Shown: positions 4,141-18,546 of the stretch, piece by piece | How positions within the stretch are numbered: the first letter of the stretch is position 1 | Layout: each line of letters begins with the position of its first letter | Source of the DNA: Gaiellales bacterium | GTDB taxonomy: Bacteria; Actinomycetota; Thermoleophilia; RBG-16-64-13 | Assembly: GCA_012719395.1 (NCBI GenBank) | Contig: JAAYAL010000079.1 | Span: 1-33,546 of the forward strand | DNA length: 33,546 nucleotides | Direction of reading: 5' to 3' | The notes under the pieces: generated by a model | The model's input: only the letters and a program-made list of their open reading frames with translations | Told to the model about the DNA's origin: nothing | The model's database searches: none | Made by a program: the position numbers and the translations under genes

Positions 4141-4184
4141 GGCCGGGGACCGGCCCAGGCGCACATCCTGGCGCTTGTCAGGAT
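4141..4184 (-). terminator. Tandem hairpins after the TetR gene
   Basis: ATCCTG (4165-4170) pairs with CAGGAT (4179-4184), overlapping the TetR stop codon. GGCCGG (4141-4146) pairs with CCGGCC (4150-4155) just beyond. There is no T-run. The position at the end of a minus-strand gene fits transcription termination; the stems are short. Confidence 0.35.
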
Positions 4185-4816
4185 CGGTCGGTCAGGTAAT
4201 GGGGCCGAACGGCCCCCCGCATGATGAAACCCACCACTGATCCCAGCACCTCGTCGAAGGGGGTGGTGCGACCTGGGTGGTACCAGCGCAGCGGCCAGTT
4301 GATGACGCCCAGCACGTTGAGGGTGAGAAGGCGAAGATCGTGCTCCTTGGCAACGATACCCAGCTGCTGTAGATACGCGAGTTGATCATGATAGAGGTCG
4401 AAGACCTCCCGCTGCATCTTCCGCATGATCTCCCGCGTCTCAGCCGTGAGCTCAGAGCTGTCCACCAGGTAGATCTTGGCCTCGTGGTTCAGCTCGCGTC
4501 CCAGCTGGATATGGGTCCGCACCAGCAGCTCGAACTTGTCAAGGGCCGTCATGTCCAAGCCCAACACCCGGTCCAGCTCCCGCATCAGCTTGCGGGACGA
4601 GCGCTCAATGAGAGCGACCAGGATGCCTTCCTTGTTGCCGAAGTAGTGGTAGATGCTGGAAATGCTCATGCCCATCGCTTTGGCGATGTCCCGAATGGAG
4701 GTGGCATCGAAGCCCCTGGTCGCGAACAGCTCGACCGCGGCTGCGAGGACTCTGTCTTTGGTGTCTACCTCGGCCATGCCGACATCCAGTGCGTTCGTCA
4801 CTTCTTCTCGAAACAT
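4178..4816 (-). CDS. TetR/AcrR-family transcriptional regulator
   Basis: Homodimeric ligand-responsive DNA-binding repressor. The N-terminal TetR helix-turn-helix is clear: RVLAAAVELFATRGFDATS, then IRDIAKAMGMSISSIYHYFG, ending NKEGILVAL. The C-terminal half is a helical ligand-binding domain with no diagnostic residues. The start is uncertain: ATG 4816 (GGAA eight bases upstream) gives 212 residues, and ATG 4777 gives the typical 199. The longest frame starts at GTG 4870, inside the 32-base palindrome, and is unlikely. The gene lies just downstream of the ketone-carboxylation operon in the same direction. It probably controls that operon through the dyad at 16895-16927, perhaps with a ketone, beta-keto acid or acyl-CoA as effector (inference). 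Confidence 0.9.
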   Translation of the reverse strand: MFREEVTNALDVGMAEVDTKDRVLAAAVELFATRGFDATSIRDIAKAMGMSISSIYHYFGNKEGILVALIERSSRKLMRELDRVLGLDMTALDKFELLVRTHIQLGRELNHEAKIYLVDSSELTAETREIMRKMQREVFDLYHDQLAYLQQLGIVAKEHDLRLLTLNVLGVINWPLRWYHPGRTTPFDEVLGSVVGFIMRGAVRPHYLTDRS

Positions 4817-4866
4817 GATAGCTGTTCCGGGCGGACTCATGGCCGCTCGGGGGAGAGTCACCTTCC

Positions 4867-4898
4867 GCACCCGCCGGCGGTCGACCGCCGGCGGGTGC
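4867..4898. repeat. Perfect 32-base palindrome between thiolase and TetR genes
   Basis: Bases 4867-4898 read identically on both strands, centred on TCGA at 4881-4884. A transcript would fold into a 14-base, almost all G-C stem (5' arm GCACCCGCCGGCGG) with a 4-base loop. It begins 19 bases after the thiolase stop. It probably ends or attenuates the long operon before the TetR gene; no T-run follows. As DNA it could also be a protein-binding site. Confidence 0.8.
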
Positions 4899-4917: not shown

Positions 4918-6084
4918 TCAGACGCTCAATACCACTACCGTGCAGGATTTGGAGTCGGCCGCTTTGTCTCCGCCCATGCAGTGAGCCAGTCCCACCCGGG
5001 CTCCGGGCACCTGCCGGGGCCCGGCCTCGCCTCTGAGTTGAGCCACGATCTCACACAGCTGAGCGGCGCCGGTGGCACCAGGCGGGTGTCCGCGGCTGAG
5101 GAGGCCGCCTGAGGGGTTCACCGGAATGCGGCCACCCAGGGCCGTCTCCCCTGCCTCCGCCAGCCGTCCCCCTTCCCCGGCCGGACAGAGGCCCAGAGCC
5201 TCGTAGTGCAGTATCTCGGAGATAGTGAAGGCGTCGTGGCACTCCACCACGTTCAGATCCTCGGGGCCGACGCCCGCCGCCTCGTAGGCAAGACGACAAC
5301 CCCTCTCGTCCGTCTCCCAGTGGGTCAGGTCCTGGGGATTGGCATAGCTCCCCGTGCAGTACACGGCGGCCCTGACGTCGACCGGCCGTACCTTGCCTCT
5401 CGAGGCACCACGGCGCCACCTGGCGAAATCGGCTGAAGCCAGCACCACGGCCGCTGCTCCGTCGGCATTGGGGCAGCACTGCAGCCGGGTGAGGGGGTCG
5501 ACCACCATGGGCGCGGAGAGCACGTCCTCCGGCGTGATCGGGTCGCGGAACTGAGCGTTGGGATTGAGGGCGGCATGGCGGCGGTTCTTCACCGCCACCG
5601 CCGCCAGCTGCGCCTCGGTGGTGCCGAACTCCGCCATATGCCTCTTGGCCCTCAGCGCGAAACCGGCGGGAGCCACCAGGCCCAGCTGCGTATCCAGCTC
5701 GGACTGGCCGGAGTGGATCAGACCCAGCTCCGGCACGTACATCTTCTCGGCACCCACCACCATCGCCACCTCCACCTGCCCCGCCGCCACCTGCCCGCAG
5801 GCCAGGCAGAACGCAGTTGAGGCGGACGTGCAGGCGTTCTCTATGTTGTAGATGGGGATGCGGTTGATCCCTACTTCCCAATAGACGTTCTGGCCGATGG
5901 TGTGATCGCTGAACAGTCGGGCAGCCAAGCCGTTGGAGAAGAAGCCCGCACCGACCTCCCCCGGCTCGACCGCAGCGTCCTTCAGGGCCGCGCGGGCTGC
6001 CTCCGCCGCCATCTCCACCAACAGTTTTTGCGGATGGCGGCCGAAGGGAATCATACCCACGCCCAAGATCACCACCTCACTCAT
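4918..6084 (-). CDS. Thiolase family acyl-CoA acetyltransferase (SCP2-thiolase type)
   Basis: About 388 residues. It should cleave a beta-ketoacyl-CoA with CoA into acetyl-CoA and a shortened acyl-CoA. The nucleophilic Cys is in NACTSAS (about residue 85). The HDAF motif (about 283), the GHPPGATG His (about 333) and the C-terminal CMGG Cys (about 369) complete the thiolase active site in the form seen in SCP-x-like thiolases. ATG 6084 follows GGGGGAGG at good spacing and overlaps the DUF35 gene by eight bases, so the pair is translationally coupled. Such thiolases commonly need a DUF35 partner. As last gene of the operon it fits the final cleavage step after carboxylation and CoA activation. 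A biosynthetic condensation role is possible but less likely beside a ligase and carboxylase. Confidence 0.9.
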   Translation of the reverse strand: MSEVVILGVGMIPFGRHPQKLLVEMAAEAARAALKDAAVEPGEVGAGFFSNGLAARLFSDHTIGQNVYWEVGINRIPIYNIENACTSASTAFCLACGQVAAGQVEVAMVVGAEKMYVPELGLIHSGQSELDTQLGLVAPAGFALRAKRHMAEFGTTEAQLAAVAVKNRRHAALNPNAQFRDPITPEDVLSAPMVVDPLTRLQCCPNADGAAAVVLASADFARWRRGASRGKVRPVDVRAAVYCTGSYANPQDLTHWETDERGCRLAYEAAGVGPEDLNVVECHDAFTISEILHYEALGLCPAGEGGRLAEAGETALGGRIPVNPSGGLLSRGHPPGATGAAQLCEIVAQLRGEAGPRQVPGARVGLAHCMGGDKAADSKSCTVVVLSV

Positions 6085-6559
6085 CTCGGACCTCCCCCCC
6101 GCCCGTGTCCGTCTCCTTCTCCGCATCCTCGTGGTGGTCGCCCGGACTGAAGTAGGGCCGGAGGCACGGCTGGCCGCTGCCGTCGTGACCGAGGACGGAG
6201 ACGGTCAGCCTCAAGGGCATGTCGAGCCGGTAGCGATCGATCGCTGACGGGTCGAGCAGGCAGAAGACGCGCAGGCCGCTCTCCTTCAGGTCCACATAGC
6301 CCACCGCGTACGGCTGCGGCAGTCCCAGGGGCGGCCGCATGCGGATGACCGTGAAGGCGTGCAGCTTCCCCTCGCCTCCCAGATCGGCCGCCTGCACCGG
6401 CTCCAGGCAACTCCGGCAGTACGAAGGGCACGGGAAGTACCAGCGCGCGCAGTCAGGGCAATATCCGCCCACAAGGCGCGGGCGGGAGCCGTCCTCATAC
6501 CCGGTGACAATGCCTTCCGTGACCAGTGTGGCGTGTTTAAGTTCGGTTGTCTCACTCAT
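6077..6559 (-). CDS. DUF35 OB-fold protein with zinc ribbon, thiolase partner
   Basis: About 160 residues with the two-part architecture of this family. An N-terminal rubredoxin-like zinc ribbon has Cys34-x2-Cys37 and Cys48-x2-Cys51 (CPDC, CRSC; an extra Cys at 44). A C-terminal OB-fold begins around GGEGKLHAFTVIRM and contains PYAVGYVDLKESGLRVFCLL. Proteins of this type pair with thiolases or HMG-CoA synthase-like enzymes; in archaea they form a complex that passes acyl-CoA intermediates. ATG 6559 is preferred over GTG 6571. It lies 27 bases after the ADH stop and overlaps the thiolase start by eight bases, which supports a physical complex with that enzyme. Confidence 0.87.
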   Translation of the reverse strand: MSETTELKHATLVTEGIVTGYEDGSRPRLVGGYCPDCARWYFPCPSYCRSCLEPVQAADLGGEGKLHAFTVIRMRPPLGLPQPYAVGYVDLKESGLRVFCLLDPSAIDRYRLDMPLRLTVSVLGHDGSGQPCLRPYFSPGDHHEDAEKETDTGGGEVRDE

Positions 6560-6586
6560 GGATGCTCTCACCGCTGATCTGGTACC

Positions 6587-7630
6587 TCACGCTTTCAGGA
6601 GAACCTTCAGGCACTCGTCTTTGCGATTCTCGAAGAGGTCGTAGGCCTCGAGCGCCTGATCCAGCGCGAAGGCGTGGGTGACGAAGGGGGACAGATCCAC
6701 CCGCCCCGATTCGAGCAGGCCCATCAGCCGGTCCATGCGCGAGGTGTTGGAGAGACCCATGTGCAGGTGGATGCCTTGGAAGGGAAGCCGGTTCATGGGG
6801 ATCTCGAAGGGCGCGGGGAAGAGCCCCACCGCCGAGACGGCCCCGCCCCGGCGAACAGAGTCCAGTGCCTGCAGGAACGTCTGCTGCAGCCCAATGGCCT
6901 CGATGGCCACATCCACCCCCCGGCCGGCGGTGGCGCCTCTCAAGAACTCAACCGCGTCGGTCTCAGCCGCATTGACGGGGACGGCTCCGTAGCCGGCCGC
7001 GATCTCCAGACGGTTGGCCATGGTGTCCACGGCGAAGACGCGCTTGGGCGAGAAGAGCTGCGCGGAGACCACAGCCGCCAATCCGATCGGGCCACAGCCG
7101 AACACGACCACCTCGTCTCCGGTCTTGATGCCCGGCTCGTGGGCGGCGTGATAACCCGTGGACCAGACGTCCCCCACGAACACGGCCTGATCGTCGCTCA
7201 CGGTGTCGGGGATGGGCACCAAGCAGTTGTCCGCGTAGGGGACACGCACGTACTCGGTGGCCGCTCCGTCTAGTCCGGGCCCGAAGATGTCCCCGCCGGC
7301 CCACACCCCGCCCGCCGTGCAGTGCTGCGGTTCCCCTCGCTTGCAGGCCGCACACACCCCACAGTACACCGCGGCCGGCGCCGCCACCCGGTCCCCCGGC
7401 TTGAAGCGTCTAACGTCGGGCGCCACTTGCGCGATGGTACCGACGAACTCATGGCCGATGATGATGCCGGGATGGATGCCCGGCATCATGCCGTACTTGA
7501 TGTGGATGTCGGAACCGCAGATGGCCGCGGTGCTGACCTTGACCAGGACATCGTCGTTTGCACGGAGCTGGGGTTCGGGAACGTCCTCGAGCGCGAAGCG
7601 GTTCCCCTCTTTCAGAACGACAGCTTTCAT
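6587..7630 (-). CDS. Zinc-dependent medium-chain alcohol dehydrogenase
   Basis: About 347 residues, full length for the MDR family. Catalytic zinc ligands are Cys38 (CGSDIH), His60 and Glu61 (GHEFVG). Structural zinc ligands are Cys90, 93, 96 and 104 (CGVCAACKRGEPQHC). The Rossmann motif is VVFGCGPIGLAAV, for NAD(P)H. ATG 7630 has a GGGGGAAGG ribosome site directly upstream. It lies 19 bases after the ligase gene in the carboxylase operon. Context suggests it oxidises a secondary alcohol to the ketone that is then carboxylated, as isopropanol and 1-phenylethanol dehydrogenases do in known pathways. The family also includes threonine and polyol dehydrogenases, so the substrate is inferred from neighbours only. 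Confidence 0.9.
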   Translation of the reverse strand: MKAVVLKEGNRFALEDVPEPQLRANDDVLVKVSTAAICGSDIHIKYGMMPGIHPGIIIGHEFVGTIAQVAPDVRRFKPGDRVAAPAAVYCGVCAACKRGEPQHCTAGGVWAGGDIFGPGLDGAATEYVRVPYADNCLVPIPDTVSDDQAVFVGDVWSTGYHAAHEPGIKTGDEVVVFGCGPIGLAAVVSAQLFSPKRVFAVDTMANRLEIAAGYGAVPVNAAETDAVEFLRGATAGRGVDVAIEAIGLQQTFLQALDSVRRGGAVSAVGLFPAPFEIPMNRLPFQGIHLHMGLSNTSRMDRLMGLLESGRVDLSPFVTHAFALDQALEAYDLFENRKDECLKVLLKA

Positions 7631-7649
7631 CCTTCCCCCTATCGGATCG

Positions 7650-9296
7650 TCATCGCTTGACCTGGTAGCCGGCCGTCTCCCGGTCCCACGTATCCGCGGT
7701 GACCCCCTCATCCCTCAGCTCCTGCTTCTGGATCTTCGCGGTGGGCGTATGGGGCAGTTCCTCCATGATGCGCAGGTAACGCGGCATCATGAAGTAGGCC
7801 ATCTTGTCCTGCACGTAGTCCATCAGCTCGACCGGTGCCAGAGAGGCCGCGGGCTTCAGTGAGAGGCACACCATCACTTCGTCTTCCGACTCCGGCGACT
7901 TCACGGGCACGGCTGCCGACTCCAGCACGGCCGGATGCGAGTTGATAATGCGCTCCACCTCGTAGGAGCTGATGTTCTCGCCGCGCCGGCGCAGCGCATC
8001 CTTCTTTCGATCCTTGTAGTGGAAGTAGCCTTCCTCATCCTTGACCCCGTAGTCACCGGTGTGGAACCAGAGGTCGCGCCAGGCCTCCACCGTCTTCTGT
8101 GGATCCTTGTAGTACTCCAGCAGCATGGTGTACGGCTTCTGGGTGCGGACCAGCATCTCACCCATGACTCCGGCAGCGACCTCCGAGTCGTGGTCGTCCA
8201 CCACCTTGACCTCGCAGCCATACACCGGCCGGCCGATGGTGCCTTTGCGCCCATGCTTCAGGGTGTTCATCAACGGCAGCCCCAGCTCGCTCATGCCGTA
8301 ACCCTCGAGCAACACCACGCCGAAGCGTCTTTCGAACAAGTCGAAGAGATCGGGCGGGCAACCGCCGCCCACCATCACCCGGACGGGATTGTCGGCGTCA
8401 TCGGGACGGGGCTCGGCTTTGAGCAGGATGGGCAGGATGCCGCCGATATAGTTGAACTCGGTGCAACCGTGTCTCTTGATGTCGTCCCAGAAGCGGCTGG
8501 CTGAGAAGCGTTCGGCCAGCACCATGCGGGCTCCGCTCACCAGGGCGGCCATGGTGGAGAGCAACTGGGCGTTGCCGTGGAACAGGGGCAGCGCGTTGTA
8601 CAGGCGATCGGCCTCCGTGTACTCGGCGCACTCGGTGCAGATCTCCCCCATGAACAGCGCATAGTTCTGGGGCATCAGCGAGCCCTTGCTGGGCCCGGTG
8701 GTGCCGGAGGTGAAGATGATGGCGAAGGGATCAGACCAGAAGACGTCTATCTCCTGATACGCGCCGTCGTTGTCCACCAACGCCCGGTAGTCCAGGGTGG
8801 GCCTGCTCAGACCCGGCAACTCCTCCCCTTCCCGGCCCAGCACGATCACCTGCTCCACCCCGGTGTCGTCCAGCACCGGGGCCACCCTGTCGAGCCAGTC
8901 GCTCTCGGTGATGAGCAGGCGGCACTCCGGCTTGTTGATCATGTAGGCCAAGAGGTCCCCTCGGTGAGCCGTGTTGAGTGGCACCTCCACTGCCCCCAGT
9001 TTCGAGAGCCCGAACCAGATGAAGATGAACTCCGGCCGGTTCTTCATCTCGATGGCCACAAAATCGCCCTTCTTCACGCCCAGCTTCTGCAGGCCGGCCG
9101 CCACTCTGTCCGACTCGCGGTCCAGGTCTTCGTAACCGTAGACTCGCTCACGAAAGGTGAAGTACTCTCGGTTGCCGTGCTCCGCCACCCTGCGTTTCAG
9201 CAGAGCGTGAATAGTGCGTTCCCGGGCGGGATCCGGGACAATGCCGGGGGCGGCCGGCGACGCTGCCGGCCGCGCTGCTTCTCTCGACGCAGTCAT
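7650..9296 (-). CDS. AMP-forming acyl-CoA ligase (ANL superfamily)
   Basis: About 548 residues, activating a carboxylic acid to its CoA thioester through an acyl-adenylate. Motifs in order: P-loop-like FTSGTTGPSKGS (near residue 195), YGMSELG, FHTGDYG, DRKKDALRRRGENISS (hinge and A8 region) and PTAKIQK with the catalytic Lys near residue 521. The RRRGENISSYEVE form resembles carnitine/crotonobetaine-CoA ligase-like members. ATG 9296 has GAGGAG five bases upstream and begins eight bases after the HyuB stop; the frame runs upstream to 9410 only by overlapping HyuB. Directly behind the carboxylase genes it is the obvious beta-keto acid:CoA ligase, the role acetoacetate-CoA or benzoylacetate-CoA ligases play in known ketone pathways. 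Confidence 0.92.
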   Translation of the reverse strand: MTASREAARPAASPAAPGIVPDPARERTIHALLKRRVAEHGNREYFTFRERVYGYEDLDRESDRVAAGLQKLGVKKGDFVAIEMKNRPEFIFIWFGLSKLGAVEVPLNTAHRGDLLAYMINKPECRLLITESDWLDRVAPVLDDTGVEQVIVLGREGEELPGLSRPTLDYRALVDNDGAYQEIDVFWSDPFAIIFTSGTTGPSKGSLMPQNYALFMGEICTECAEYTEADRLYNALPLFHGNAQLLSTMAALVSGARMVLAERFSASRFWDDIKRHGCTEFNYIGGILPILLKAEPRPDDADNPVRVMVGGGCPPDLFDLFERRFGVVLLEGYGMSELGLPLMNTLKHGRKGTIGRPVYGCEVKVVDDHDSEVAAGVMGEMLVRTQKPYTMLLEYYKDPQKTVEAWRDLWFHTGDYGVKDEEGYFHYKDRKKDALRRRGENISSYEVERIINSHPAVLESAAVPVKSPESEDEVMVCLSLKPAASLAPVELMDYVQDKMAYFMMPRYLRIMEELPHTPTAKIQKQELRDEGVTADTWDRETAGYQVKR

Positions 9297-9304
9297 GGCT
9301 CTCC

Positions 9305-11386
9305 TCAGGCGAACATCGGCATGGGCGGCATCTGAGCGATACCCACGCTCGGGTGCGGATAGGTCCCGTAGTACTTCAACAGCTGGTCCGGCGGACGCAG
9401 TTGGCTCCACTCCTTGACGAACTCGCTGTAGGGCCTGCCTCGCCGCAGCCGCTCGGCCCGCGCCTGCGCACGCAACTCCGCGGTCTTCTCCTCGTCCAGG
9501 CGCAGGGTGTCGGGATCGTAGGCCACCTTGTAGACGCTGGCGGCGGCGAAAGGCGTGGTCAGGTCCGCCCGCAGGTCGGCGATGACCGCCTGGGGGTCGC
9601 GCTCCAGGGCGTCGCCGTAGCCGGCGCCTCCCCCGCAGGGCACGTAGAAAGTGTCACCCTGGCCGAAGGGCTCGGGCATCATGGTCATGTGGTGGAAGGC
9701 TCTGGTGCCCGCCTCCGGATTGCCCTCGCCGTAAACCTCATCCAGAGCCTTGGGGAGCTGAGGGTCGGAGCCGGCCAGCAACTGATTGACGTTGCTGCCG
9801 TGCACGGCCTGGATGAAGGTGGGCGGAACGGCGTAGCCACCGAAGACCCCCAGGGTGGAGGGGAACTTGGAACCGTAGCCGTGTGCCCCCATCAGAAAGA
9901 ACGGGGAGCCGTGCGTCATCAGCCCCATGCCCACGGCCGCCCCGCCCCGGTGCCTGCCGTGTCCGTACGAGCCATTGAAGAAGTTGCGGAAGAGGTAGAC
10001 GAAAGGCCGATCCGACTCGGTGGTCTCCACATCAGAGCAGTCGCTCATGGTGGCGAAGTAGGAACCGGCGCAGTCCACCCCGTCCATGTCGGGACGGGCA
10101 CCGCAGCCGGTGGCGTTCATCTCCGGGGTAATGTCGGCGCAGGGCTCACCCCACTGGGTCAGCCCGCCGTAGATGGGGACGCCGAAGCCGTTCATCCAGG
10201 CGGCGACCGCGCGGGATCTGTCGTAGTGGTAGGTCATGCGGGCACCGATGAGGAAGACCCCCAGCGCGAAGGCGGCCTGCGGGTAGGGCGCCAGGGAGGT
10301 GGGGGCGTCGCCCTGGGCGTTGATGAGCGCATTGCCCGGGACCTCCCACTCCACCACCTCCAGCAGGCCGTTGTTGGCCGGAAGGTCGTAGAAGAACCAG
10401 CCGCACAGATACACCATAATCAGCCCCAGCGCCCCCTGGAAGTAGGTGTTGAGGGGCTTCTGCGGCATCATGGGAGACGTATCCTCGAAGCTCACGTACA
10501 GCTTCTCTCCCTGCTTGCGGATGGTGATGCCAATCTTGGTCAGTCCTTCCTCCGTGCCCACCGTGTCCATGAAGCGGGGCTGGCGGAAGGTGCCGTCGTG
10601 CAGCAGGCTGAGCTTCTTGCGGGCGGCGTCGGCAGTGACGGTCAGAACCTTTCGTAGCGAGCCGACGAAGAACTCCGCTCCCCTCTGCTCGATGACTTCC
10701 AGGATCCGCCGCTCGGCGATGCGGGAAGCGGCCAACCTGGCCTTGATGTCCAGGATGAGGGTTCGCGGATCGCGGACCATGGCGGAAAACATGGTGAGCA
10801 CGTCGTCCCGGAGCTGATAGTTCTCCCCGACCTTCATAGGCGGGATCTTCAGACCCTCGTCGTACTTGGACTGCGCGCTCGTGCTCACCCCGCCCGGCTC
10901 CGAGGCGCCGCACTCTCCGCTGTGCACGATAGCCCCCACGAAGCAGACCAGCGTGTCGCCGTGGAAGACGGGGATGACCAGACCCATGTCGGCAGGGTGC
11001 ACACCGCAGATATAGGGGTCGTTGAAGAAGAAGGAGTCTCCGGGCTTGACCCCCACGGTGGGATTGTCTACCCAGTGCTTCACGATGTACTTGACCGGGA
11101 TCTGCCCCAGCACCGCGTGGAACCAGATGCCGGTGGCGACCACGGCCACGTCGCCCTGGGCCGTGTAGATGCCGAAGGCCACGTCACCCCAGCGCATGCC
11201 GTTGGAGGCGCCCAGCTTCATTGTGGTCTCTTTGCCCTCCTGGGCGATCATCTCCAGCTTGTGACGGACGATCTCGAAGTCGAGGTCGTCTATCTCAGCC
11301 TGGGCGGCCGCCTCCGTCGCCGTTATCGGCTCCGGTTTGAGCCGATGGACGACCTCGGGATCGCGCGTGTAGGCGACGCCGATCAT
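9305..11386 (-). CDS. HyuB-family subunit of an ATP-dependent ketone carboxylase
   Basis: Hydantoinase B/oxoprolinase family protein (PF02538), 693 residues. The N-terminal part contains EIVRHKLEMIAQEGKETTMKLG, followed by GDSFFFNDPYICGVHPADM and AIVHSGECGASEPGG. These are conserved regions of HyuB proteins around the presumed catalytic site. The C-terminal end has GGGAGYGDALERDPQAVIADL, also family-typical. ATG 11386 overlaps the upstream HyuA stop as ATGA, showing tight coupling. In acetone and acetophenone carboxylases the HyuB-like subunit combines the activated ketone with activated bicarbonate. A hydantoinase or oxoprolinase function is the alternative, but the gamma-like gene, ligase and thiolase in the operon favour ketone carboxylation. 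Confidence 0.88.
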   Translation of the reverse strand: MIGVAYTRDPEVVHRLKPEPITATEAAAQAEIDDLDFEIVRHKLEMIAQEGKETTMKLGASNGMRWGDVAFGIYTAQGDVAVVATGIWFHAVLGQIPVKYIVKHWVDNPTVGVKPGDSFFFNDPYICGVHPADMGLVIPVFHGDTLVCFVGAIVHSGECGASEPGGVSTSAQSKYDEGLKIPPMKVGENYQLRDDVLTMFSAMVRDPRTLILDIKARLAASRIAERRILEVIEQRGAEFFVGSLRKVLTVTADAARKKLSLLHDGTFRQPRFMDTVGTEEGLTKIGITIRKQGEKLYVSFEDTSPMMPQKPLNTYFQGALGLIMVYLCGWFFYDLPANNGLLEVVEWEVPGNALINAQGDAPTSLAPYPQAAFALGVFLIGARMTYHYDRSRAVAAWMNGFGVPIYGGLTQWGEPCADITPEMNATGCGARPDMDGVDCAGSYFATMSDCSDVETTESDRPFVYLFRNFFNGSYGHGRHRGGAAVGMGLMTHGSPFFLMGAHGYGSKFPSTLGVFGGYAVPPTFIQAVHGSNVNQLLAGSDPQLPKALDEVYGEGNPEAGTRAFHHMTMMPEPFGQGDTFYVPCGGGAGYGDALERDPQAVIADLRADLTTPFAAASVYKVAYDPDTLRLDEEKTAELRAQARAERLRRGRPYSEFVKEWSQLRPPDQLLKYYGTYPHPSVGIAQMPPMPMFA

Positions 11387-13530
11387 TGCTCACCCCCTGC
11401 GGTCAGAGAAACGTTGTGGAAGCGGTCGACGGCCAGGCTCCATCCGGGTTCCACCACGTAGGTGCTGTCCTTGGCCTCGACAATCGCCGGCCCCGCCACC
11501 AGGTTGCCCGCCCGGAGCGCCTCGAAGCTGAAGACCGGGGTGTTCTGGGAGCAGGTTGCATCGCCCCACCAGGCCTGGCGGCTTTCCAGCCGGGCCTCCG
11601 CCGGCGGCTCGGAGCCGGCCGGCTCCTCCTCCGCAAGCCGCGGTGCCGGCGTCTCCACCCAGGCGGTCAGGTAGAAGCACTCCACGTTCACCCCGCCCAC
11701 CGGGAAGATCGCCTCCGGGGAGTACATGGCCGAGTAGTCGGCGGTGAACTGGTCGCAGATGTTCTTGAAGTCTTGCGGAGAGGAGACGGTCAGGTGCGGA
11801 GAGATAATGCGCGTGAGGTTGTACTGCATGCCGTAGCGCATGTCGAGTTCCAGCCGGAACTTGACCGCTTCATCCGGGTAGCCCTCCAGCCGCAGGTCGC
11901 GCAGGGCCAGGTCGCGCAGTTCCTCGACCACGGAGTTGAAGGCCTCCACATCCTCCAGGTAGGACTGGTCCTGCCAGCGAAAGATCTTCAGCGTGCGCGA
12001 CTTGTCCCACACCTGCTGGATGTTCATGGTGGAAACGCCGAACGCGCCGAACACCGGCGAGTAGGGTGAGGCCATCACCTTGGTGACCCCCAAGTAGGGC
12101 GCGAAACCGCAGGCGTGGGCCGGGCCGGCGCCGCCGCAGGCCATGAGCACGAAGTCGCGGGGGTCGTACCCCTTGAGTGCGACTTCGTTGAAGACCTCCT
12201 GCCCCATCCTGGCATCAACCAGACGGCGGATGCGCATGGCGGCCTCCATCACACTGATGCCCGCCGGGCGTGCAATCTTCTGCTCGATGGCTTCATAGGC
12301 CAGATCGGGATCGAGCAGCATCTTGCCGCCCAGGTAGTTGTCGGGATTGAGGTAACCCAGCACCAGGTCGGCGTCGGTGACCGTGGGCTCGATCCCCCCC
12401 TTGTCGTAGCAGGCCGGGCCCGGCTGGGAACCGGCCGACTGTGGGCCCACCTCGAGGGTATTGCCCATGAGCTTGTTGATCCAGGCGATCGAACCACCCC
12501 CGGCCCCGATCGACTTCACCTCGATGGCGGGGATGTTGGTGCGCCAGCGGTCGATCACCGGGATGAAGTCGTACGCCTTCATGCGGCCGCCGGTGACCAC
12601 GCCGATATCGAAGGAGGTGCCGCCCATGTCCGTGAAGACCACGTTGCCGTAACCGTAACGACGGCCCAAGGTGGCGGCTCCATGCAGACCGGCCACCGGA
12701 CCGGCATTGTGCGTGAGCACGGCCCGGGTGCGGGAGGCCTTCTTCATGCCGCCCGTGTTGTGGGCCAGCACCAGTGGCTTCCTGTACCCGCCGGTACGGA
12801 GTTCGGTGACCAGCTTGTTGATCTCGTCGCCCATCACGCCCTGGATGTAGGCGTTGACGATGGTGGTGGTGAAGCGGGTGTACTCGCCCGACTTGGGTGA
12901 GACCTCGCTGGAGAGCGTCACCGGCATGGAGCCCAGGTAGTCCTCGGGATACTCCTCCTCGATGATCTGCTTGATCATCTGCTCGTGAGTCGGGTTCTGG
13001 AAGCTCCAGAGCAGGCAGACCACGAAGCCCATGGCTCCCCGATCCACGAGGATCTGCAGCTTCTCCAGCACCTCTCCGCGGGAAAGCGGCGCCAGCACTC
13101 GGCCAAAGGAGTCCACCCGCTCCCGTACCCCGACCACCATGTCCCGAGAGATGAGCGGCTCGGGCTTGCGGATGCGGGCCAGGTCCCGGTTCTCCTGCGG
13201 CGTCCCCCCGTCCGCCCAGCTACGACCCCGTCCGATGTAGATGGCATCCTCGTGGCCGGCAGTAGTGATGAGGCCCAGTTTGGGACCGGTGCGCTCCAGC
13301 AGGGCGTTGGTCCCGACGGTCGTGCAGTAGTGGACCGTATCGGTCCCGGCGAACATCTCGGCCAGGGGCAGCCCGTAGAGCCGGGCCAACTCATTCATGC
13401 CCTTCATGAAGCACACAGAGAGGTCGTAGTGGGTGGTGGGCGTCTTGGTGAGCCGAGTGCCGCTGCCGTTACCGGCCGCGTAGAAGTCGGTGAAGGTGCC
13501 GCCGACGTCGATATTGATGCTGAGACCCAT
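11383..13530 (-). CDS. HyuA-family ATPase subunit of ketone carboxylase (first copy)
   Basis: Hydantoinase A/oxoprolinase family, 715 residues. It begins with the nucleotide-phosphate motif IDVGGTFTDFY of the N-terminal Hydant_A_N domain. The second half of the ASKHA nucleotide-binding fold shows FTDMGGTSFDIGV, then SIGAGGGSIAWI and CGGAGPAHACGFA. These subunits bind ATP and phosphorylate the ketone enol and/or bicarbonate. ATG 13530 has AGGGGG upstream, 16 bases after the UroD-fold gene. The C-terminal about 200 residues are HyuA_C-like, with a Glu/Pro/Ala-rich insert near EEEPAGSEPPAEA. It is distinct from the second HyuA at 14835-16871, so the complex should contain two different ATPase subunits. 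Confidence 0.9.
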   Translation of the reverse strand: MGLSINIDVGGTFTDFYAAGNGSGTRLTKTPTTHYDLSVCFMKGMNELARLYGLPLAEMFAGTDTVHYCTTVGTNALLERTGPKLGLITTAGHEDAIYIGRGRSWADGGTPQENRDLARIRKPEPLISRDMVVGVRERVDSFGRVLAPLSRGEVLEKLQILVDRGAMGFVVCLLWSFQNPTHEQMIKQIIEEEYPEDYLGSMPVTLSSEVSPKSGEYTRFTTTIVNAYIQGVMGDEINKLVTELRTGGYRKPLVLAHNTGGMKKASRTRAVLTHNAGPVAGLHGAATLGRRYGYGNVVFTDMGGTSFDIGVVTGGRMKAYDFIPVIDRWRTNIPAIEVKSIGAGGGSIAWINKLMGNTLEVGPQSAGSQPGPACYDKGGIEPTVTDADLVLGYLNPDNYLGGKMLLDPDLAYEAIEQKIARPAGISVMEAAMRIRRLVDARMGQEVFNEVALKGYDPRDFVLMACGGAGPAHACGFAPYLGVTKVMASPYSPVFGAFGVSTMNIQQVWDKSRTLKIFRWQDQSYLEDVEAFNSVVEELRDLALRDLRLEGYPDEAVKFRLELDMRYGMQYNLTRIISPHLTVSSPQDFKNICDQFTADYSAMYSPEAIFPVGGVNVECFYLTAWVETPAPRLAEEEPAGSEPPAEARLESRQAWWGDATCSQNTPVFSFEALRAGNLVAGPAIVEAKDSTYVVEPGWSLAVDRFHNVSLTAGGEQ

Positions 13531-13546
13531 ATATCCCCCTATCGCT

Positions 13547-14497
13547 CTACACGCGGATCAGAGCGATCTGCTCGATCGCCGCCCGCAGCTTCTCTATCTG
13601 AAAATCACTCCTATCCGGCTCGGCCATGATCAGGACCAAGCTGCTGCCTGCCGCCTGGGCCGCCCCCGCTGCCTGCGCCGCCACGTCTGCGGCTTTGTCC
13701 GGCGCTTCCCCGTCCAGCGAGAAAAGGACCGCGGCGCCACCGCTCTGCACCGAGCGGGCCGTTTCCAGGGAGGGGAACCCACCCGCGACGGACGAGCCCA
13801 GGGCCAGGCAGTCCAGCCCCAGCTCCCGCAGCCCCGACAGATCCTCTTCGCGGTATCCGCGGAGGAAGACCCCGACCGGGATGTTGTAGTAGGAAGCCAC
13901 GTTCCTTACCGTGGCGTAGATGCGCCGGTGGTGAGGGGTGATGCCGCCGGCAGCGAAACCCTGGCCCTCCATGAGCAGCATCAGGTCCGGGCGGGTCTCG
14001 CAGGCGGCCTCCACGCAGCGCAGCATCGGGGCCTTGATGTCCCGGGCCTTCCCCACCGCCTGATCCGGCCCGAAGAGCATGGCCGCGCTGGTGATGGGCC
14101 CGGTGAGCATGGCCACACGGGCACGACCGGAAGAGTCTCCGGCAAACAGGCGGCGCATCACCTCCAGCGCCGTTGCCAGCCTCCCCTTCTTCTCCGGGTT
14201 CTCGGCCATCGTCTCCACCGGGCCAGCCGGTCGGGGCAAACCGTTCTTCCAAGCGATGGGTGCCCCCAGGCCTTCGGCAGTCAGGGTGGGGTCATAGGCC
14301 ACGGCCAGCGCATCGGCGCCGAGCAGCTTGGCGGCAGCCGTCAGCCCGCCCGTCCACAGCCCGGCATCAGACTGCATCTCCTGCAGGCTGCATCCCGCCA
14401 GCTTTGCCGCCAGCCGGTTGACCAGGGGTAGGAACGCCGGCCGGTCGGCCGGTCGCCCCTGGAGGGCATTAAGGAACACCTCTCGTCCTCCGGCCAC
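13547..14497 (-). CDS. Divergent uroporphyrinogen decarboxylase-fold protein
   Basis: About 316 residues resembling the UroD/MtaA family (PF01208). The N-terminus REVFLNALQGRPADRPAFLP is the usual opening helix and loop. Later segments such as GPITSAAMLF, ADALAVAYDPTLTAEGLGAP (an interior strand plus loop) and ELGLDCLALGSSV fit the TIM-barrel. The family includes heme-pathway decarboxylases and zinc-dependent corrinoid:CoM/tetrahydrofolate methyltransferases. The His-x-Cys zinc motif expected before the ELGLD strand is absent (the site reads VGVFLRGYREED), and the protein is shorter than usual. GTG 14497 overlaps neither neighbour and lies two bases after the gamma-gene stop. Its place among carboxylase subunit genes suggests an accessory or structural subunit. 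Its mass, about 33 kDa, is close to the extra ApcE subunit of acetophenone carboxylase as I recall it. Function is not known. Confidence 0.72.
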   Translation of the reverse strand: MAGGREVFLNALQGRPADRPAFLPLVNRLAAKLAGCSLQEMQSDAGLWTGGLTAAAKLLGADALAVAYDPTLTAEGLGAPIAWKNGLPRPAGPVETMAENPEKKGRLATALEVMRRLFAGDSSGRARVAMLTGPITSAAMLFGPDQAVGKARDIKAPMLRCVEAACETRPDLMLLMEGQGFAAGGITPHHRRIYATVRNVASYYNIPVGVFLRGYREEDLSGLRELGLDCLALGSSVAGGFPSLETARSVQSGGAAVLFSLDGEAPDKAADVAAQAAGAAQAAGSSLVLIMAEPDRSDFQIEKLRAAIEQIALIRV

Positions 14498-14499
14498 GA

Positions 14500-14829
14500 T
14501 CAGGCTCCGTACCTGGCTTTGAGCGCATCGACGTCGAGCTCAATCTCGTGCGTGAGCGGGTGGCCGGGCGGCAGGTATTCGTTCTCGATCATCGTGCCGC
14601 AGTTGGGACAATAGAACTCGATGAGCCGGCAGAAGTCCGGGTCCGGCGTGAAGCTGTAGGCCTGGCCGTCGTTCAAGGAGGGATGGACCTCCTCCAACGG
14701 CCGCTGGGCCACCAGGCAACCGGTCTTGTAGTCGTCCCGGGCGCCGGCGAGCGCATAACCACAGCACCGGCAACACCACTCCTCGCGATCGAGATCTATC
14801 TCCAGATACTCGGTGATCCTGACCTTCAT
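14500..14829 (-). CDS. Acetone/acetophenone carboxylase gamma-like zinc subunit
   Basis: About 109 residues matching the small acetone-carboxylase gamma family (Acetone_carb_G). Two Cys pairs typical of a zinc site are visible: WCCRCCG (Cys19, 20, 22, 23) and FYCPNCG (Cys74, 77), with further Cys38 and Cys67. The segment DYKTGCLVAQRPLEEV and the ending DVDALKARYG are also family-like. In known enzymes this subunit is a structural component of the HyuA/HyuB complex. ATG 14829 is chosen, with GAGGAGG about ten bases upstream; GTG 14838 would leave the ribosome site touching the start. It begins six bases after the HyuA stop. This gene separates a ketone carboxylase from plain hydantoinase or oxoprolinase operons, which lack it. 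Confidence 0.85.
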   Translation of the reverse strand: MKVRITEYLEIDLDREEWCCRCCGYALAGARDDYKTGCLVAQRPLEEVHPSLNDGQAYSFTPDPDFCRLIEFYCPNCGTMIENEYLPPGHPLTHEIELDVDALKARYGA

Positions 14830-14834
14830 GCCGC

Positions 14835-16871
14835 TCACACCTCCTCGAGCACGCAGTTGCGATAGCCGTCCACGCTCAGCCTCCAGCCGAACGGCACCAG
14901 GGCGGTTGTGTCCTTGGACTCGACCACGGCCGGCCCGCCGATGACGTGGCCCGCGGTGAGCGCGGCCATGTCGTAGACCGGAACCTGCTCCGCGCCCGCT
15001 CCCCGCCTCAGCACCACCACGCGGCTACCTTTGCGCGCCGCATCCGCCGCGCAGCTTCCCAACGCGCTGCTGGGGAGGCTGTAATGCGGGATAGGGGCCG
15101 AGCAGGAGAGGCTGAGGGTGGTGATGGTCAACGGCCCTCCGTTAACCGACGAGCCGGCATCGGCCAGAGCCGCCCGCACGCTTGCCTCGGCTCCCGCCGT
15201 CTTCTCGGCCGATTCGAAGAAGTCGGGCTCGACGGCTACCTTGAGTTCACAACCGCCGCCGTTCGGCTTGACGAAGAGATCCAGACCCACCCGTCCATCG
15301 TCCAAGGAGAAGCCCTCCCCGCGCAGGTCGCGTTCGGCTTCCCGACGCATGTCGGCCACCGCTGCGGACACGAACTGCGAGAAGTCGGTGTCGCCGAAGA
15401 GGCTTTCCGCCCTTCGGTAGTAGATGTGCCCCACGTCCATGGTGGAGGCGCCGAAGGCGGAGAACACCGAGGCGACCGGCGTCAGCAGAATCTTCTTGAG
15501 CCCTGCCACCTCCGCCACTCCGCAGCAATGTGATGGGCCGGCACCGCCGAAGACCAGCAGCAGCGGTTCGCCTTCCGGCGCCACTTCCTCACGCAACGCC
15601 TTGGTCTCCAACCCCATGTTCCGGTCCACCGTCTCCTTGACCAGCAGCGCAGCCTCCTCCACCGATACGCCAAGGGGTTTGGCCAGTTTCTCCTCGATGG
15701 CCGCCCGGGCCTTGTCCGGCCGCAGCTTCATGCCGCCACCCAGGAAGAAGTCGGGATCCAAGATGCCGAGCACGACGTCGGCATCGGTAACCGTGGGCTC
15801 AGTCCCGCCCAGGTCGAAAGCCACCGGGCCGGGAAGCGCCCCCGCCGACTGCGGCCCCACCTCCAGGCGTCCGTCCTCGATGTGAGCGATCGATCCCCCG
15901 CCCGCCCCTATGGCCCGGATGGATAGCATGGGCAAATTCACAGGAAAGCCCTCCACCGACGGCCGCACGCTGTAGCTAGCGGTACCCCGGTGCACATAGC
16001 CCAGATCGAAGGAGGTGCCGCCCATATCGGCCGAGATGAGGTCGGAGGTCCCGTAGAGATCGGCCATCAGTCTCGCGCCCATGAGGCCGCCGGTCGGGCC
16101 CGAGTTGTAGGTGTTGATGGCGCGGGTCTTCGCCACGCGGGCCACAGCCCCATTATTGTGGCCAATGAACAGGCTCTTGTGGTAAAGGCGCCGCCTCAGG
16201 TCTTCGCCCGCCTTGTAAAGGAGGCGAACCAGCTTCGGGTGGATGTACCCGGAGATGACGGCCGCATTCACTCGTTCCTGCTCGCCCGCCCGGGGTGAGA
16301 TGTTGGAGGAGAGGAAGACAGGCAGGGAGCCCAGGAAGTCGCGCGGATACTCACGTTTGATGGCCGCTTGGACCAGGCGCTCGTTGGCCGGGTTGGCATC
16401 CGAGTTGGCCAGCGCCACCACCAAGCAGCGAGCCCCTTGGTCGATCAGGGTCTGAGCCGCCTGCAACGCCTCGGCCTCGCTGGGAGCCGTCACCACCTCG
16501 CCGGCCGGCGAAACCTCCTCCGCCAACCCCACCACCATATCGGCCGCCACCAGAGGAGCCTTGCCCGGCGCTTCCCCGACTGGCGCCAAATTCTCCCGGC
16601 CCTTGGTCATGATCAGGCCAATCTTGGCTCCGTCCCGCTGGATGATGGTGTTGGTGCCAATGGTGTTGGAGAAACGAACGATCTCGGTATCATGGAGCAG
16701 ATCCTCCAGAGGAAGGCCGAAGCGTTCCGCCCCCGCCTTCACGCACTCCAGGAAGCACACCGTGAGATCGTGCGGCGTGGTGGGAACCTTGACCGTCTCG
16801 ACCTGGTCCCCTCGACATATGAAGCCGTCGGTGAAAGTCCCCCCCGTGTCGATGTCAATCGTGAACCCCAT
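14835..16871 (-). CDS. HyuA-family ATPase subunit of ketone carboxylase (second copy)
   Basis: Hydantoinase A family, 678 residues and the first gene of the operon. Key motifs are IDIDTGGTFTDGF at the N-terminus, SADMGGTSFDLGY, AIGAGGGSIAHI and VFGGAGPSHCCGVA, so both phosphate-binding loops of the ASKHA fold are intact and it should bind ATP. ATG 16871 has a GAGGGGG ribosome site. It aligns by motif order with the copy at 11383-13530 but differs in sequence and length, so it is an old paralogue and not a recent duplication. Two unlike HyuA subunits plus one HyuB and a gamma subunit is the composition known for the acetophenone carboxylase core. Transcription probably starts near 16938. Confidence 0.9.
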   Translation of the reverse strand: MGFTIDIDTGGTFTDGFICRGDQVETVKVPTTPHDLTVCFLECVKAGAERFGLPLEDLLHDTEIVRFSNTIGTNTIIQRDGAKIGLIMTKGRENLAPVGEAPGKAPLVAADMVVGLAEEVSPAGEVVTAPSEAEALQAAQTLIDQGARCLVVALANSDANPANERLVQAAIKREYPRDFLGSLPVFLSSNISPRAGEQERVNAAVISGYIHPKLVRLLYKAGEDLRRRLYHKSLFIGHNNGAVARVAKTRAINTYNSGPTGGLMGARLMADLYGTSDLISADMGGTSFDLGYVHRGTASYSVRPSVEGFPVNLPMLSIRAIGAGGGSIAHIEDGRLEVGPQSAGALPGPVAFDLGGTEPTVTDADVVLGILDPDFFLGGGMKLRPDKARAAIEEKLAKPLGVSVEEAALLVKETVDRNMGLETKALREEVAPEGEPLLLVFGGAGPSHCCGVAEVAGLKKILLTPVASVFSAFGASTMDVGHIYYRRAESLFGDTDFSQFVSAAVADMRREAERDLRGEGFSLDDGRVGLDLFVKPNGGGCELKVAVEPDFFESAEKTAGAEASVRAALADAGSSVNGGPLTITTLSLSCSAPIPHYSLPSSALGSCAADAARKGSRVVVLRRGAGAEQVPVYDMAALTAGHVIGGPAVVESKDTTALVPFGWRLSVDGYRNCVLEEV

Positions 16872-17196: not shown

Positions 17197-18546
17197 CTAC
17201 TGCTGCCCCGGGTCCCTGGGGTCCCTGACCTCTCCCACGAAGAGCAGCACGCCGCTGGCCACGTGGCGAATGAAGAAGAGGAAGGGCCGGTTGAGCTCGA
17301 TGCTGCCGCCGATACCCCCCGCAATGGTCACCTCGGTGGCTGCACCCGCCTTGGTCCCCTGCTCGGTGACCTCGATGTAGGCCTGCTGGGCCACGCCGTC
17401 GATGAACCAGCCGGTGGTGGGGGTCATGCCGCTGAAGTCGCCGTCGGAGAAGGCGGTGGTCATGCCCATGGCCGTGAGGCTGGGCTCGAGGTCCAGGTTG
17501 CGCTGGAAGTTGAACCGGGGCATGGTGACGGTGGTGAGGCCGTCGCCGGCCAAGCCGTCGACGATGGCTGCCAGTTTCTCCGGTGTCAGGCTTTCCTCGA
17601 AGGCGGTGAGGCTGCCGCCGGTGGGTGGAGTGGCGGCCACTGAGCCCGTCGGCAGCACGGCCAGGAAGGCAAGCGTGTTGCCGGCATAGGGGAGCTCCAC
17701 CGCCTGGTAGTCCTGGCCTTCGGACACCAGGAAGTCGGTGGTGATGCTCATGGTGTCCACGCTGATCTCGGTGCCGTCGTCCAGGGTGAAGGGGCGGGGC
17801 TGGGTCATGGCGGGGTCGAACTGGTGGGCCCAAAGGGCGTCCAGGCGCACGGCGGACGTGAGCACGCAGAGCAGCGGGTAGGCGTCAGACACGGGGGGCG
17901 CCCACTCGGCGCTGAACTCCCTCCCGATCTCCCGCGCCAGCCACTCCGCCACCATCCGGCTGGCGCCCTCGCGGTCACCGTTGAAGTCTGCGACGGTGAC
18001 ACCGGAGCCGTAGTAGCGGGCCAGCAGGTCCAGGTAGTCCTCGTGGAAGGGCGTCCCATCCTGGGCCCAGAAGGCGGTGGCCGAGTGAAGCTCGGGCGAG
18101 GCGCTCTCCGCCAGCGCAAGATCGCGGGCGTTCACAGCCATCGGCAGCCGTTCGGAGGGAAGCGAGAGATGCAGCGCCGTGGCAATCTCCTGCTGGGTGC
18201 TACCCCGCGCCCCGTCGTGGGTCATGCCCAGCGCCGTCAGCAGCCCCCAGGGCGAGAAGACCAGGTTGCGGCCGTCGGCCGAGAGCCGCGTCAGCAGGTC
18301 GAGGGCGAAGGCCTGCGAATCGGCCACCAGCGCCTCCACCTCCTCGGCAGAGGCCTCCTCCGCCGGTGCCCGGTCTACGGTGGAGTAGATCCGGCCCGGG
18401 GTCAGGTGGGTCTTCTCGTTCTCACCGGCGGCCGACCGACCCTCACCGCCTTCGGCCCCACACCCGGCCAGGATCACCCCCAACATCAGCAGGCAGATGT
18501 ACGCGGTGACGAGCCGGGCACGTGAGCGTATCCTGTTGCGGTTCAT
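17197..18546 (-). CDS. Lipoprotein serpin (serine protease inhibitor)
   Basis: About 449 residues: signal peptide, lipobox VILAGC-G, a charged spacer of about 60 residues, then a full serpin domain. Serpin landmarks include NLVFSPWGLLTALGMTHDGARG, FHSATAFW-like helix residues (LHSATAFWAQDGTPF) and the C-terminal RPFLFFIRH with GVLLFVGEVRDP. The reactive-loop hinge reads EQGTKAGAATE, small residues that permit loop insertion, so it is probably inhibitory. By spacing, the scissile region falls near TIAGGIGG, which suggests an elastase- or subtilisin-like target (inference). It is tethered outside the cell and may protect against secreted proteases. It stands alone between the ketone operon and a divergent MFS gene. 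Confidence 0.93.
   Translation of the reverse strand: MNRNRIRSRARLVTAYICLLMLGVILAGCGAEGGEGRSAAGENEKTHLTPGRIYSTVDRAPAEEASAEEVEALVADSQAFALDLLTRLSADGRNLVFSPWGLLTALGMTHDGARGSTQQEIATALHLSLPSERLPMAVNARDLALAESASPELHSATAFWAQDGTPFHEDYLDLLARYYGSGVTVADFNGDREGASRMVAEWLAREIGREFSAEWAPPVSDAYPLLCVLTSAVRLDALWAHQFDPAMTQPRPFTLDDGTEISVDTMSITTDFLVSEGQDYQAVELPYAGNTLAFLAVLPTGSVAATPPTGGSLTAFEESLTPEKLAAIVDGLAGDGLTTVTMPRFNFQRNLDLEPSLTAMGMTTAFSDGDFSGMTPTTGWFIDGVAQQAYIEVTEQGTKAGAATEVTIAGGIGGSIELNRPFLFFIRHVASGVLLFVGEVRDPRDPGQQ

Follow-up and report, generated by a model that had tools for sequence, protein, structure and literature searches.

The gene at positions 13547..14497 of the minus strand of the 33,546-nucleotide stretch analysed here (the window) very probably encodes a divergent form of ApcE, which is the epsilon subunit in ATP-dependent ketone carboxylases of the acetophenone-carboxylase type (Apc type), as judged from profile matches and a structure model. 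The product (hereafter E) has 316 aa and 32.9 kDa and is predicted to form a UroD-type barrel without the zinc motif. Its gene is placed within the carboxylase operon in the order A-B-E-C-D, which in our sequence comparisons marks one large and little-described branch of these carboxylases. The new elements are this branch, the probable transfer of its operon into an actinobacterium and the indications of which features E can dispense with.

Gene context and carboxylase subunits

The open reading frame of E starts with GTG, and the likeness of its N-terminus (MAGGREVF...) to that of its relatives (METGRELF...) indicates that the annotated start is correct. The minus-strand reading was retained because the protein is conserved across about 50 loci; an opposite-strand frame (13490-14431) was rejected as a shadow frame, with a GC3 of 0.71 versus 0.84 for E. 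The gene is flanked by gamma (14500-14838) upstream and by a HyuA gene (11383-13530) downstream, and the open reading frames and domain matches of the window agree with the first-pass annotation, which had placed it between these two. E is the sole PF01208 match in the genome, a MAG rated 98% complete, so that no HemE and no MtaA-type protein was detected in it.

The operon is read from the minus strand in the order HyuA1, gamma, E, HyuA2, HyuB, ligase, alcohol dehydrogenase, OB-fold, thiolase and TetR, the carboxylase genes overlapping or having few bases between them. The apcA-like gene (HyuA1, 14835..16871; 678 aa, 70.9 kDa; PF01968/PF05378, NCBIfam ApcA/ApcC), predicted Apc alpha-prime, contains the ASKHA motifs DTGGTFTD, DMGGTSFD and GALPGP and lacks the alpha fingerprint R/KERiDsxG. 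The apcB-like gamma (14500..14838; 112 aa, 12.7 kDa) was identified by PF08882 (1e-31) and NCBIfam ApcB (1.8e-45) and contains two CxxC pairs, C23, C26, C77 and C80, invariant across 16 clusters. The apcC-like gene (HyuA2, 11383..13530; 715 aa, 78.0 kDa; NCBIfam ApcC 1.4e-207), predicted Apc alpha, presents both the ASKHA motifs and the alpha fingerprint, as RERVDSFG. The last subunit is the apcD-like HyuB (9305..11386; 693 aa, 75.6 kDa; PF02538, NCBIfam ApcD 2.5e-116), predicted Apc beta. Motif definitions for ASKHA and for the fingerprint were taken from PMC5214803, and A is assigned as alpha-prime and C as alpha because the fingerprint occurs only in the second HyuA.

The repertoire expected of an Apc-type carboxylase is present: two HyuA, one HyuB and a short four-cysteine gamma in one operon, ASKHA ATP-site motifs in both HyuA, the alpha fingerprint in one only, and E as a fifth subunit of the ApcE family. 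The masses of A, B, C, D and E (70.9, 12.7, 78.0, 75.6 and 32.9 kDa) match those of the published Apc subunits (70, 15, 80, 75 and 32 kDa; PMC5214803). The NCBIfam equivalog cut-offs were missed by all five proteins (score/cut-off of 32.9/450 for E, 154/250 for B, 428.8/1250 for A with ApcA, 691.3/1500 for C and 389.6/1500 for D); in the positive control, Panacagrimonas perspica, all five are above the ApcA-E cut-offs. The window thus departs from acetophenone carboxylase proper both in equivalog scores and in the published apcABCD(E) order, and with scores so far below the cut-offs the enzyme may well act on something other than acetophenone.

The remaining genes of the operon, also on the minus strand, comprise an AMP-binding acyl-CoA ligase (7650..9410, PF00501) with a role like that of benzoylacetate-CoA ligase, its true start being probably inside the listed frame; a zinc alcohol dehydrogenase (6587..7711, PF08240/PF00107) that could oxidise a secondary alcohol to the ketone; a ChsH2-type OB-fold/zinc-ribbon thiolase partner (6077..6571, PF01796 and PF12172); a thiolase of the SCP-x/BbsB type (4918..6126, PF22691/PF00108 and NCBIfam thiolase models including BbsB); and a TetR-type regulator (4178..4870, PF00440/PF17932). 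Directly upstream of the operon, a bacterial serpin (PF00079, 3e-74) was identified at 17197-18546 of the same strand.

Kinship of E to ApcE

E matches the Pfam URO-D family PF01208 at 8.4e-10 (38.6 bits, above the gathering score of 23.9), and its AlphaFold2 model is a full UroD barrel (pLDDT 91.7, pTM 0.91); the two together place it in the UroD superfamily, as the first-pass annotation had proposed. The comparison with ApcE suggested there also gave a match, the best among NCBIfam models being the ApcE model NF042977 (4.2e-8), which recognises 34 of 40 relatives of E. In searches of PDB chains, phmmer with the single protein reached the ApcE structure 9fou at 0.0014, and the profile of the 40-member family reached 9fou at 6.8e-23 and MtaA (4ay7) at 1.3e-12, these two being the only chains up to an E-value of 1. 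Foldseek with the model ranked MtaA first and 9fou second; the VIA Z scores were 31.1 for MtaA, about 27 for UroD and 24.6 for 9fou, which itself superposes on the UroD/MtaA fold set.

It had further been suggested that the fold might have a new role here, with E as an accessory or substrate-handling subunit of such a carboxylase. Profiles, masses, operon, association and fold strongly support the accessory subunit; the novelty is not supported, since ApcE is a known fifth subunit with a deposited structure (9fou, released in December 2025) and an NCBIfam model of its own.

Missing zinc motif and conserved residues

In the alignment the MtaA His-x-Cys position is occupied in E by Phe-Leu-Arg (within VGVFLRGY), so E lacks the motif that defines the MtaA/CmuA zinc methyltransferases. 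Of 19 control proteins with the UroD fold, taken from the same phylum, 16 contain H-x-C, with few exceptions at the aligned position, where none of the 40 ApcE-like proteins has it; its absence, already noted for E in the first pass, is hence common to the aligned relatives.

The strictly conserved positions of E include G133, P134, P170, E177 and G234. Gly133-Pro134 and Glu177, on the pocket side, are invariant in 35 E proteins from A-B-E-C-D clusters; the Gly-Pro pair is general to the UroD fold (18-19 of the 19 controls), and the controls commonly have an acidic residue at 177 as well. Arg116 and the aromatic residues 203/204 are kept in E proteins, including those from the other gene order, and almost never occur in the controls. 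By secondary structure they are located within helices or at helix ends, which makes it plausible that they form a docking surface. Asp70 of the window protein is presumably the equivalent of the catalytic Asp86 of human UroD.

A barrel hairpin has been lost in some relatives of E: 8 of the 40 aligned proteins are without part or most of the region at about residues 70-104. One of these (locus L099), with no Pfam match, retains the barrel in a structure model (pLDDT 95.8, VIA Z 26.4 to MtaA). Mean pairwise identity is only 29% for E, as against 69% for gamma, 67% for C, 66% for D and 56% for A, which makes E by far the fastest-diverging subunit. Shortened and very divergent E-like proteins were also seen beside HyuB in L068 (9950-11509) and L070 (1253-1969), both scoring only some 50 bits against the E profile, the latter having no PF01208 match.

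Distribution of the A-B-E-C-D clusters

A scan of genome contigs with the single E sequence yielded no confirmed relative, and the survey was therefore seeded with the better conserved gamma. Among 80 gamma-seeded loci from named genomes, a sample selected by gamma and not by E and biased toward relatives of the window gamma, E was found directly after gamma in 48, after HyuB in 9, before A in 1 and further downstream in 4; in the remainder E was not detected or the contig ends. The 48 A-B-E-C-D loci belong mostly to Desulfobacterota, Myxococcota and Pseudomonadota. Within the same phylum as the window, 16 two-HyuA clusters presented E after HyuB in 9, before the first HyuA in 1, in shortened form in 2 and undetected in 4, the share of 10 in 16 being inflated since some of these clusters were chosen through E or ApcE search matches. 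The association of E with HyuA-gamma-HyuA-HyuB clusters, on which the first-pass proposal depended, is thus conserved; E is not universal, as some Apc-type clusters have none in or near the operon. In three actinobacterial Apc clusters (L066, L071 and L074) A and B are separated by about 450-520 bases; the two genes abut or overlap in the window and in most other clusters.

In the tree of the C subunit, 40 A-B-E-C-D rows and L123, which has no E, form one branch (99% SH-aLRT) standing apart from the canonical Apc of Panacagrimonas perspica, where the gene order is A-B-C-D and then E. L123 is the only A-B-C-D member within this branch, with C directly after gamma and no E seen in the locus. Homologues of the ligase, the OB-fold protein and the thiolase were each identified in 31 of 36 A-B-E-C-D loci, and a TetR homologue in 34 of the 36, upstream of A in nearly all; the alcohol dehydrogenase has a homologue in only 6. 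The A-B-E-C-D order was not described in the literature retrieved with searches for apcABCDE elsewhere, for the 9fou paper and for ketone carboxylase with UroD, subscription papers being outside their reach. Loci of this order would probably be mis-annotated as hydantoinase plus uroporphyrinogen decarboxylase.

Origin of the window copy

The Apc clusters of genomes from the same family (Thermoleophilia/Actinomycetota MAGs) have E after D, and their identity to the window reaches up to 62% in gamma and about 40% in HyuB, versus 80% in gamma, 74% in C and 72% in D for clusters of Myxococcota and Desulfobacterota. The SbcD protein encoded on the contig is closest (60%) to same-family genomes among those searched, and G+C is fairly even along the contig. 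On these two grounds a misbinned proteobacterial piece is considered less probable than a horizontally transferred operon. With the operon nearer to the Myxococcota and Desulfobacterota clusters while SbcD fits the family, the A-B-E-C-D operon of this actinobacterial MAG was likely acquired horizontally, as far as sequence similarity can tell. Over 20 HyuB-like matches were identified in one same-family genome (G400), which suggests a large expansion of hydantoinase/carboxylase-type enzymes there.

Proposed role of the epsilon subunit

In Aromatoleum aromaticum the Apc core shows no activity by itself, and in vitro it works only when the fifth subunit, ApcE, is supplied to it (PMC4729919, PMC5214803). 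It has been proposed that epsilon attaches to the core in its closed form, sets off the kinase reactions and contributes to spanning the distance from one site to the other (PMC5214803). If the published Apc model is carried over to the window, C (alpha HyuA) would phosphorylate the ketone enol and A (alpha-prime HyuA) bicarbonate. A loosely bound epsilon would dock on the core, favour its closed state and bridge the gap between the kinase sites, allowing the enol phosphate to react with CO2 or carboxyphosphate. Activation and cleavage of the beta-keto acid would subsequently fall to the acyl-CoA ligase and the thiolase/OB-fold pair. We regard the clamp or bridge step by epsilon as reasonably probable.

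The likeliest role of E, from alignment and model, is non-catalytic, in assembly or conformation, and this fits its fast divergence, the absent zinc site and the hairpin missing in several relatives. A catalytic E, whose barrel pocket would bind carboxyphosphate, CO2 or enol phosphate and perform the C-C bond forming or a dephosphorylation, appears unlikely. It would agree with the need for ApcE in the activity of the A. aromaticum enzyme (PMC4729919), and a bound ligand or catalysis could explain the invariant pocket-side Gly133-Pro134 and Glu177; however, the first two are fold-wide and an acid at the third is common in the controls, several relatives lack part of the barrel, and being the fastest-evolving subunit is unusual for one that carries an active site.

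The reading of E as a corrinoid/CoM-type methyltransferase (MtaA/CmuA) or a UroD merely sitting in the operon is very improbable. The PF01208 match, weak NCBIfam MtaA/CmuA matches (5e-4 to 2e-3) and MtaA as the closest VIA fold speak for it, but the H-x-C zinc ligands are replaced in every aligned E, dozens of genomes have the gene tied to those of the carboxylase, and the scanned operon genes included none for a corrinoid function. The identity with MtaA was rejected on the replacement of the motif by F-L-R, and that with HemE on the equivalog model TIGR01464, which gave no match to the window E at E-values up to 1; E thus probably has neither UroD nor methyltransferase activity. That the gene is decayed, or a passenger without function, is equally improbable. 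The very low mean identity, the absence of E from some clusters and its shortening in L068 and L070 could be adduced for this, but the frame is intact, the slot is fixed across 48 loci, five residues at least are strictly conserved and the fold is predicted with high confidence.

The non-catalytic reading may be extended, tentatively, to the whole group: the A-B-E-C-D clusters could be a separate and widespread ketone carboxylase branch for a ketone other than acetophenone, in which E is a purely structural clamp that shed the zinc site and then the hairpin and docks to the core through a patch of Apc-specific residues, R116, N199 and Tyr/Phe 203-204. In the Apc mechanism ApcE is needed for activity and yet is unbound in the purified core. 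Divergent natural E proteins, some without part of the barrel, narrow its possible functions and offer natural test variants. The branch also flags an uncharacterised pathway of ketone degradation in many sulfate reducers, myxobacteria-related MAGs, proteobacteria and the actinobacterial MAG of the window.

Comparison with known systems

The closest known system is ApcABCDE of Aromatoleum aromaticum, which shares with the window an epsilon of 32-34 kDa with UroD fold alongside two HyuA-type, one HyuB-type, gamma and CoA ligase genes. The differences are the order A-B-E-C-D instead of apcABCD(E) (PMC5214803), the OB-fold/thiolase and TetR genes accompanying the window cluster, and an identity of only 18-19% in the structural alignment with ApcE (9fou), even though this is the best profile match of E. 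The methylcobamide:CoM methyltransferases MtaA/MtbA (4ay7) have the same barrel (VIA Z 31, 2.6 A over 301 residues), whereas E is devoid of the H-x-C zinc site and belongs to a ketone carboxylase operon. HemE (1uro and others) likewise shares the barrel (VIA Z about 27) and PF01208, but E has no HemE model match and no haem genes adjoin it. Finally, the acetone carboxylase AcxABC and the ATP-dependent hydantoinases/caprolactamase contain homologous HyuA and HyuB, with gamma also in Acx; these systems have a single HyuA and no epsilon subunit (PMC5214803).
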